Assembly (NCBI GenBank): GCA_029238255.1
Contig: JAQWGK010000042.1
Location: 1 to 50,974, forward strand
Direction: 5' to 3'
DNA from: Porticoccaceae bacterium
GTDB taxonomy: Bacteria; Pseudomonadota; Gammaproteobacteria; Pseudomonadales; Porticoccaceae
DNA length: 50,974 nt
Shown: piece by piece, positions 31,301 through 42,573 of the stretch
Position numbering within the stretch: the stretch's first letter is position 1
Layout of the letters: every line of letters begins with the position of its first letter
Translations under genes and position numbers: made by a program
Notes under the pieces: model-generated
Told to the model about the DNA's origin: nothing
Databases searched by the model: none
The model's input: only the letters and a program-made list of their open reading frames with translations

Positions 31301-32221
31301 ATGACTATTAGACATTTTCTTACCCTTCACGATCTCAGCCCTGATGAAATAAATGAGGTTATTGAGCTAGCTATAGAGCTCAAAGCTGCCCATCGTGAAG
31401 GTCGACAAGAGCCTGTTTTTGCAGGGAAAATTCTCGGTATGATCTTCGAGAAGTCCTCTACCCGCACCAGAGTTTCCTTTGAAGCTGGCATGGCGCAACT
31501 GGGGGGCGATGCCCTGTTCTTATCCCCCAATGACACTCAGCTAGGGCGCGGTGAACCAATCGAAGATTCCGCGCGAGTCATCTCGCGAATGGTCGATATT
31601 GTGATGATTAGAACCTTTGGTCACGACAAGATTGAAAAGTTTGCCGAGTACTCAAAGGTACCGGTCATTAATGCGCTTACTGACCAGTTCCACCCCTGTC
31701 AGCTACTGGCAGATATACAGACGTTTGTCGAACACCGCGGTTCGATTCAGGGTAAAACCGTGGCCTGGATTGGCGATGGCAACAATATGTGCCAGTCGTG
31801 GATCAATGCGGCGATGCTATTGGATTTCAATCTCAATATCGCCTGCCCGGCCGGCTATGAACCCGACGTCGAGTTAGTGGCTAGAGCTGGAAAGCGTGTC
31901 ACTGTGACCAATGATCCTGTGGAAGCGGCCACTGGTGCACATCTTGTGACTACAGATGTATTTGCCTCAATGGGTCAGGAAGATGAACAGGAAGAGCGTT
32001 TAAAGCACTTTGCCAACTATCAGGTTAATCATAAGTTGATTGGCCATGGGGCGGATGATGTGTTGTTTATGCACTGTTTGCCAGCCCATAGAGATGAAGA
32101 GGTCTCTGCTGAACTGTTTGAGGATGAGAATATTTCAGTGGTCTGGGATGAGGCGGAGAATCGTTTGCACGCGCAAAAGGCGTTAATGATGTTTTTGCTT
32201 GGAGCTAGCAGTAATCCCTAA
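31301..32221 (+). CDS. argF: Ornithine carbamoyltransferase
   Basis: A 306-residue transferase that joins carbamoyl phosphate and ornithine to citrulline. Carbamoyl-phosphate site [18 protein letters not shown]; ornithine-site SMGQE; HCLPAHR near the C-terminus. Typical length. In an operon with argD; its substrate is made by carAB, encoded 5 kb away in this window. Confidence 0.97.
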
Positions 32222-40347: not shown

Positions 40348-41490
40348 TTAGTTGCGCGCTTCCATAAGTTCAATAAAGTGGTCAAACAACACTGCTGCCT
40401 CATGGGGACCAGGGCTTGCTTCCGGGTGACCCTGAAAACTAAAGGCTGGCTTATCGGTGCGATGGATACCCTGTAGCGATCCATCGAATAGCGAGCGGTG
40501 CGTAGGAATCAGATTATCCGGCAAGCTGGTTTCATCAACCGCAAAGCCATGGTTCTGACTGGTGATCATCACTACATTGTTGTCTATATCTTCAACCGGA
40601 TGGTTGGCACCGTGGTGACCAAACTTCATCTTTGCCGTCTTGGCACCGGAGGCCAGAGCCAACAGCTGGTGACCCAGACAGATTCCAAATACTGGAATCT
40701 CGGTTTTGAGAATTTCTGTAATAGCGTCGATAGCGTAATCGCAGGGTTCTGGATCGCCGGGGCCATTGGATAGGAATACGCCGTCCGGATTCATCGCCAA
40801 CACTTCACTGGCAGGGGTTTTAGCCGGTACAACCGTTAAATCGCAGCCGCGATCGACCAGCATACGCAGAATATTGCGCTTAACACCGAAGTCGTAGGCT
40901 ACCACTTTGAATTTTGCTGTAGTCGGATCCTGATCCCTGTGACCAACACCCAGCTCCCAGCTGTGCTGAGACCACTGATAGGTAGATTCTGTCGTTACTT
41001 CCTTAGCCAGATCCATTCCTTTAAGGCCGGCAAACTCTCTGGCGGCGGCAAGGGCGGTTGCGTCATCGACATCACCGGCCATAATGCAGCCGTTCTGAGC
41101 ACCGCTCTCGCGGAGGATACGGGTCAGCTTGCGGGTATCTATATCGGCGATACCGAGGATATTGTTATCCTTGAGGTAGCTATCCAGAGATTGCTCGCTG
41201 CGGAAGTTGGATACCAGCAATGGCAGATCGCGAATAACCAGACCTGAAGCCCAGACTCGATCCGACTCTGCATCTTCGTCATTGACGCCGACATTGCCTA
41301 TATGGGGATACGTGAGGGTAACTATCTGCTGAGCATAAGAGGGATCAGTAAGAATTTCCTGATACCCGGTAAGGGCTGTATTGAAAACCACTTCACCAAC
41401 GGAGCAGCCATCTGCACCGATAGCGGTTCCTCTGAAAATTGTTCCGTCTGCAAGCGCAAGTACGGCTTCTCGGTGAGTATGGGAATTCAC
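40348..41490 (-). CDS. carA: Carbamoyl-phosphate synthase small (glutaminase) subunit
   Basis: A 380-residue glutamine amidotransferase that supplies ammonia to CarB. N-terminal CPSase_sm_chain domain ([20 protein letters not shown]). The class I glutaminase has a nucleophile Cys in [15 protein letters not shown] and His/Glu in [16 protein letters not shown] start at 41490 with AGGAGG upstream. It has an attenuator-like leader of about 190 nt (41491-41689), so carAB is likely controlled separately from dapB. Confidence 0.97.
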
Positions 41491-41574
41491 ACAACCTCCT
41501 AATTAATTAACTAAAAAAACGTTGACCTGAAATCAGGTGACTCCGATTACGGCATCAGTCAATTTCGAATATTT

Positions 41575-41612
41575 GTAAAAAAGCGAGATGAAACTCGTCG
41601 TCTCATCTCGCT
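41575..41612 (-). terminator. Intrinsic terminator in the carAB leader (attenuator)
   Basis: On the minus strand AGCGAGATGA - 11-nt loop - TCATCTCGCT, a perfect 10-bp stem followed by six Ts. It lies between the predicted carAB promoter (41684-41712) and carA. Its 5' arm contains the TGA stop of the leader peptide. An upstream GTCTCATT (41654-41647) can pair with GATGAGAC of the 5' arm as an antiterminator. It would also terminate dapB read-through. Confidence 0.8.
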
Positions 41613-41659
41613 AAATATAATATTCTGCTGTGCTCTAACCTCTCGGAATGAGACCGCAT
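41603..41659 (-). CDS. Putative carAB leader peptide (18 residues)
   Basis: The minus-strand reading frame MRSHSERLEHSRILYLAR runs from ATG 41659 to TGA 41605-41603. It has four arginine codons, all of kinds usually rare (CGG, AGG, AGA, AGA), the last immediately before the stop. A GCGGA sequence 5-9 nt upstream is a weak ribosome-binding site. The final codons run over a U-rich stretch (AATATTATATTTAG), and the stop lies in the 5' arm of the terminator. This geometry lets a translating ribosome prevent hairpin formation, as in pyrBI/pyrE attenuation. Too short to be a conventional gene; translation is unproven. Confidence 0.5.
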   Translation of the reverse strand: MRSHSERLEHSRILYLAR

Positions 41660-41683
41660 CTATGTCCGCGGTGTTAGGAGTGC

Positions 41684-41712
41684 ATTGTATTGAAAGTGCC
41701 CGTTTTTGTCTA
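41684..41712 (-). promoter_or_regulatory. Putative sigma-70 promoter of carAB
   Basis: TAGACA (41712-41707), 17-nt spacer, TACAAT (41689-41684), each box 5 of 6. Located in the dapB-carA spacer, 25 bp before the leader-peptide ATG and 72 bp before the terminator hairpin. Confidence 0.65.

Positions 41713-41748: not shown

Positions 41749-42573
<825 letters not shown>

Follow-up and report, generated by a model that had tools for sequence, protein, structure and literature searches.

A conserved, predicted three-way-junction leader RNA and a candidate attenuator upstream of carAB in a genus of Porticoccaceae

The carA leader of Pseudomonas, known as P32, is the closest described counterpart of the locus reported here. 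According to the available text of PMC4997734, the pyrimidine response of P. aeruginosa requires a stem-loop in this leader, a leader peptide is reported for P. aeruginosa, no start codon is seen in P. syringae, and attenuation of pseudomonad carAB is given only as a possible mechanism; a sequence-only reading of the present DNA had pointed to such a proposal, which is in print. Our locus resembles P32 in its dapB-carA location, sigma-70 promoter, leader, and similar terminator with a T-run (compared via the proxy locus L073), but has a 43-nt junction that was not found outside the genus. The E. coli pyrBI and pyrE leaders are alike in serving the pyrimidine pathway and in placing a terminator before the first gene with an A/U-rich stretch ahead of it, and differ in that this genus has no conserved leader open reading frame (ORF), short ORF starts being present in sister genera. 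PyrR attenuation of the Bacillus pyr operon also uses alternative hairpins before a pyrimidine operon, although no PyrR over the cut-off was found in 52 genomes of the family. Start-site switching at E. coli pyrC and pyrD, where a run of pyrimidines next to a hairpin's 5' strand holds the start, has a parallel in the predicted start here, but it controls translation, whereas a terminator would be gated at this locus.

The window (the whole 50,974-nucleotide stretch that was analyzed) carries the following features, all on its minus strand:

41749..42564, minus strand: dapB, the upstream neighbor
41684..41712, minus strand: sigma-70-type promoter TAGACA-17-TACAAT from a consensus scan, with the -35 box at 41712-41707 and the -10 box at 41689-41684
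41675..41677, minus strand: putative transcription start zone, C7/T8/A9 after the -10 box, within the 5' strand of P1
41635..41677, minus strand: three-way-junction RNA element of 43 nt from consensus folding (covariance model R1, 63.8 bits), with helices P1 CTAAC/GTTAG, P2 ACCGC/GCGGT, and P3 CTC/GAG and, in the window, an A opposite a C
41603..41659, minus strand: 18-codon frame MRSHSERLEHSRILYLAR and stop, ATG at 41659 to TGA at 41603, not conserved
41644..41654, minus strand: switch strand GTCTCATTCCG, which either belongs to P2/P3 or could act as the antiterminator strand, from its pairing with the terminator 5' arm
41638..41644, minus strand: Shine-Dalgarno-like GAGAGGT with no start codon, about 26 nt upstream of the terminator arm
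41613..41634, minus strand: A/U-rich spacer between element and terminator, with 2.2 changes per site on the tree
41577..41612, minus strand: intrinsic terminator with a 13-pair stem at 41612-41582 (5' arm 41612-41600 and 3' arm 41594-41582 around a 5-nt loop, one G.U pair) and a T-run at 41581-41577
40348..41490, minus strand: carA, GTG start

Much of this anatomy had been seen in the sequence-only reading, and the promoter, the 18-codon frame whose TGA lies within the terminator 5' arm, and the terminator itself are all confirmed, the hairpin of 10 bp described there being the perfect part of the longer stem. Its proposed antiterminator segment, GTCTCATT at 41654-41647, can indeed pair with this arm, and the complementarity continues over the whole switch strand, 10 of whose 11 positions pair with 41610-41600. 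Absent from that reading were the conserved fold at 41677-41635 and the weakness of the ribosome site before the ATG of the frame. Consensus scanning of the window returns two promoter-like sites with 0.9 expected and two terminator-like sites with 0.7 expected, which is little more than chance; the anatomy gains its significance from conservation in relatives. Across 41 leaders of the genus, for example, the -35 box is unchanged at five of six positions and the -10 box at three of six.

For these comparisons the carA N terminus was located in 91 of the 94 relatives and, across the family, in 107 of 112 genomes. The 142 leaders collected comprise 48 from this genus (of 50 genus genomes), 59 from its sister genera in the family, and 35 from other families. 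There is no leader from L006, in which the contig starts at carA, or L087, in which the carA start was not found, and no carA was obtained from G036 and G048. Some hairpin is present in 135 of the 142 leaders, and 124 of those 135 have the promoter pattern; 123 of the 124 entered the shuffle test for the antiterminator (48 genus, 57 other-genus, and 18 other-family leaders), and the 135 entered the counts of Shine-Dalgarno positions and start codons (48, 57, and 30, respectively). Set A2 comprises the 38 nonidentical leaders of the main type (type A), identical rows being merged, and A3 is 30 of those 38. One genus genome has a second, distant carA-like gene (G007:C17:8329-8856; 65% identity), which was left out of the counts. 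The genus appears to consist of marine SAR92-type bacteria.

The terminator is the most widely shared part of the leader. A hairpin plus T-run with a score of at least 25 is present in all 48 genus leaders, 57 of 59 from other family genera, and 27 of 35 from other families, and the arm motif CGRGR is found in 48, 56, and 23 of those, respectively. Its outer pair occurs as three standard types among the 48 genus leaders, with at least six changes, and its loop has 7.4 changes per site on the tree. A search with the terminator pattern gave a match in 20 of 194 genomes of the order, counted wherever in the genome it lay relative to carA. Because a leader terminator is kept across the genus, the family, and other families, attenuation of carAB is likely, and we regard the assignment of this leader as an attenuator of carAB as highly probable. 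The P. syringae P32 RNA starts 118 bases before carA and stops 45 bp short of that gene (PMC4997734, available text), and these ends, placed on L073, fall in the start region and the T-run of a similar terminator; termination thus has experimental support, from relatives and not from this genus, and the transfer is approximate because L073 is a proxy. L073 matches Rfam family P31 above threshold. P31, a Pseudomonas small RNA (sRNA), has its matches on the strand complementary to the carA leader and terminator, in L073 (922-998, minus strand; 52.6 bits against a threshold of 40), L074 (31.5 bits), and L066 (29.6 bits), and the window scores 21.8 bits at 41557-41611 on the plus strand. P31 may thus represent the antisense strand of the P32/carA terminator.

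The detection of P32 in P. aeruginosa as an RNA of about 80 bases (PMC4997734, available text) also bears on a different view of the locus, in which the leader is mainly the source of a stable trans-acting sRNA, a counterpart of P32, with the junction guarding the 5' end and the terminator unregulated. Against it, the same text reports that the P. aeruginosa stem-loop is needed for pyrimidine control and that deletion of P32 gave little phenotype in P. syringae, and we consider a primary role as an sRNA very improbable. Extension of the same control to pyrB was considered and rejected: upstream of pyrB-like genes in six genus genomes (L258 to L263), no hairpin plus T-run reaches a score of 25 within 220 nt, the best hairpin scoring 17.1 and two genes having none (the name pyrB is a reading of the frame).

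Comparison among relatives divides the sequence-only reading, which had proposed that a ribosome translating MRSHSERLEHSRILYLAR would block the terminator hairpin when UTP or arginyl-tRNA is low. The carAB attenuator with an upstream segment able to pair with the terminator arm is supported, with the hairpin kept in all 48 genus leaders and the pairing in all 38 nonidentical type A leaders, but the arginine-codon leader peptide is not supported in this genus. Of the 48 genus leaders, 15 have the ATG and 10 the full frame, the latter confined to one subclade and requiring two changes on a tree of dapB and carA pieces; in the other 38 leaders the full frame is absent, including those of the nearest relatives, L002 and L003 (96% identity over a carA fragment), in which it stops early, and 26 of the 48 have, in this frame, a TAA two codons ahead of the TGA in the arm. 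The ATG borders the variable P2 loop. In the window, which alone among the 10 leaders with the full frame was scored in this way, the best anti-Shine-Dalgarno duplex in the preceding 18 nt is -3.2 kcal/mol, compared with -10.4 kcal/mol before carA. Nothing was found that speaks for arginine sensing. In favor of a leader peptide are the end of the 18-codon frame within the terminator arm, its retention in those 10 genus leaders, and the frames that end K-A-R-stop at the same place in the arm in three other genera (10 leaders). On balance a peptide-based attenuator is most unlikely for the genus, and the arginine-codon version was rejected on the count of full frames. A further frame that starts in the terminator arm itself (MRRRVSSRFF...) has its start codon in 48 of 48 leaders, but its length and end vary widely, and we take it to be a by-product of the terminator.

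The part of the leader that is strongly constrained lies upstream of the terminator and spacer. Consensus folding of the leaders yields a three-way junction plus the terminator, and within the junction element 28 of 33 core positions are unchanged in 41 genus leaders on a tree with a total length of 9. Core changes amount to 0.17 to 0.20 per site, whereas the P2 loop has 5.8, the sequence upstream of the promoter 6.8, and third codon positions of dapB 11.9. The element is 41 to 44 nt long, and its type A consensus, CTAACACC..-loop-G.GGTCTC(A/G)TTC(C/T)GAGAGGTTAG, describes 41 of the 48 genus leaders; the remaining seven (L038, L040, L041, L043, L046, L049, and L091) form a single clade, type B. 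In type B leaders another hairpin replaces the junction, and CCGAGAGGTT and the terminator are retained. The consensus fold has a z score of -3.8, with 2 of 500 column shuffles equally stable, and the named structure is formed in 99.3% of the tallied cells. Folded alone, the element adopts the junction as its best structure in 24 of 38 leaders, and the other 14 have a rival fold lower by at most 0.9 kcal/mol; the window is among the latter, at -12.3 kcal/mol for another fold and -11.4 kcal/mol for the junction. Covariation supports the element weakly: P1 is invariant, P2 has one pairing-preserving double change (in 6 of 38 rows, a single event), and of five covariation measures compared with 500 shuffles three exceed all of them and two do not (pairs changed on both sides, 2 versus 2.5; pair types, 7 versus 8.5). 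We think it likely that the leader holds a functional folded RNA.

The distribution of this element is narrow. Covariance model R1 finds it in 41 of 50 genus genomes, once per genome except in G030, and gives no match in 62 family genomes of other genera (E of 0.01, strict filters); among 390 genomes of the order, strict filters leave strong matches in nine genus genomes and otherwise nothing above 22.8 bits. The second copy in G030 (C37:161-202) lies at a contig end in a genome with an estimated 4% contamination and is perhaps on a foreign contig. Membership in a known RNA family was rejected, as Rfam gave no match at the gathering score and only sub-threshold ones; in a further comparison the sole family to match was P31, in L073, L074, and L066 with the scores given above. 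The element would be an RNA family absent from Rfam 15, from a marine clade, and the locus offers a compact and strongly constrained RNA suited to testing in vitro.

Since the conserved block contains inverted repeats located at the predicted start of transcription, it could in principle function in the DNA, as an operator that overlaps the start, rather than as an RNA. The arms of the repeat differ in spacing by up to 3 bp among leaders, and the P2 loop can change freely, so RNA suits the pattern better, and an operator is extremely unlikely. A junction acting as a receptor for a small molecule or protein, riboswitch-like or PyrR-like, in which binding would hold the junction and favor termination, would account for the invariance of the helices together with a UUC loop and an AG joint, and UCC-GAGAGGUU (UCC..GAGGUU) resembles what we take to be the consensus of the PyrR binding loop. 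However, the only unpaired and invariant positions are UUC and AG, which would make a small pocket. Most riboswitch classes are not limited to one locus per genome in one genus, as this element is apart from G030. The searches for PyrR gave no gene over the cut-off with either of two models, and PyrR control was rejected on that result: with the first, three genus genomes of the 52 family genomes had matches of 20 to 23 bits, and 11 of 14 control genomes matched, 4 of them over the cut-off; with NF003549, none of six genomes was over the cut-off and one had weak matches. Together with the Rfam result, these findings leave a receptor improbable.

We propose instead that the leader works through alternative RNA pairing. 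The switch strand, with the consensus GTCTC(R)TTC(Y)G, can form 10 of 11 pairs with the arm of the terminator in all 38 type A leaders noted above, although it lies within the invariant block, and its conservation is therefore not independent. In the nascent transcript, the 5' end of the leader RNA would fold into the P1-P2-P3 junction; as long as the junction holds, the downstream terminator would form and transcription would stop, and when P1 and P3 open, strand GUCUCAUUCCG would take the 5' arm of the terminator and allow read-through into carA. With the transcript ended just past the 5' arm, junction and antiterminator are predicted to lie within 4 kcal/mol of one another in 35 of 38 leaders (window, -14.2 and -16.9 kcal/mol, respectively), with the junction favored by 5 to 7 kcal/mol in L010, L012, and L045; a third fold lies below both at this decision point in 16 of 38. 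For transcripts starting at C7, and with the 3' arm not yet made, the antiterminator is favored over the junction in most leaders and the junction over the antiterminator in 6 of 38. Shuffling gives p = 0.02 for the duplex in the window. Values of p < 0.05 are reached by 21 of the 41 type A leaders and none of the 7 of type B, by 2 of 57 leaders from other genera, and by 1 of 18 from other families, and an antiterminator common to the whole family was not found among the 123 leaders tested. Conservation of the element, its consensus fold, the conserved terminator, the mutually exclusive pairing, and the similar predicted energies are best explained by an attenuator of carAB run by folding of the leader RNA, with the antiterminator switch as drawn and no conserved leader peptide, a model to which we give a little less than an even chance. 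In this model cells would make use of the alternative pairing. Such a leader switch was not found in the literature searched, which lay largely outside subscription papers.

By analogy with P. aeruginosa, the signal is probably the pyrimidine status of the cell, which would act via RNA polymerase, either by nucleotide-dependent choice of the start site, setting the length of P1, or by polymerase pausing in the A/U-rich spacer. The switch alone leaves the invariance of P1 unexplained. Position 9 after the -10 box is an A in 44 of 48 genus, 49 of 57 other-genus, and 8 of 19 other-family leaders, mostly following two pyrimidines, and in type A positions 7 to 9 are the C-T-A of CTAAC; this predicted start zone is consistent with the start reported for P. 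syringae, transferred by distance to proxy L073. Starts from C7 to A9 would leave P1 with five to three pairs, only 3 bp at A9, and moving the start from C7 to T8 or A9 shifts the modeled median balance from 2.1 to 3.85 kcal/mol in favor of the antiterminator, a change of about 1.75 kcal/mol that is already complete at T8. These effects on P1 length and modeled balance are the basis of a more specific scenario, in which a self-contained RNA switch operated by start choice within CUAAC replaced the ribosome-based attenuator of the sister genera. If true, start choice would set P1 length and select terminator or antiterminator with no need for a peptide, a protein, or a ligand pocket; this form of the sensor swap is speculative, and we consider it improbable.

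Ribosomes enter the picture through the sister genera. In all 48 genus leaders, in 40 of 57 from other genera, and in 6 of 30 from other families (4 of 30 with another leader start), the best anti-Shine-Dalgarno site lies 22 to 31 nt upstream of the terminator arm, where shuffles predict 14 to 24% depending on the group; the distance windows were picked after inspection of the data, and the leaders are related, so that the counts are not independent. Among the 57 other-genus leaders, 44 have a start codon after such a site (12.4 expected), which is ATG in 18 (4.8 expected), compared with 1 of 48 in this genus (3.4 expected) and 3 of 30 in other families (4.1 expected). In at least 10 other-genus leaders the frame is just ATG, one codon, and a stop (e.g., ATG-ACC-TAA), and a Shine-Dalgarno-like site with ATG and a frame of two or more codons, in some cases one that ends K-A-R-stop within the terminator arm, is seen in L137 to L141, L147, L155 to L158, L165, L063, L050, L146, and L143. 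With short ORF starts near the terminator so common in the other genera, the idea of a translated leader fits the family better than the window. The presence of a Shine-Dalgarno site with a start codon in sister genera and of a folded RNA here suggests a swap of sensors, with ribosome-coupled attenuation in the former and the folded RNA in its place in this genus, a pattern read from the leader sequences. The family would then be one in which the carAB operon keeps its terminator while the sensing part seems to change, from a ribosome site at a short ORF to a folded RNA.

The same data bear on a role for the ribosome within the genus, whereby a 30S subunit or ribosome on GAGAGGT would block the hairpin and the junction would hide or expose the site; the family would then conserve ribosome placement rather than a peptide. 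The constant position of the site and the frequent start codons of the sister genera argue for this arrangement, as does the repression of an E. coli terminator by a ribosome close upstream (PMC4824070, available text). Against it, the near absence of start codons at the site in this genus is joined by a site strength no better than in shuffled leaders (p = 0.46 in the window) and by predicted accessibility, the mean unpaired fraction of the site in genus leaders being 0.38 to 0.44, and the post hoc windows and relatedness of the leaders weigh on the positional counts. Ribosome docking is on the unlikely side, though the most probable of the alternatives to the RNA switch.

Two further observations concern the surroundings of the leader. 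A small hairpin, ACCTGATTTCAGGT, lies at 41525-41538 of the window, between the terminator and the carA start, and is similar by eye in some near relatives. At 31310-31732, the window encodes an ornithine/aspartate carbamoyltransferase N-terminal domain (PF02729), probably of argF, which apparently directly follows another coding frame.
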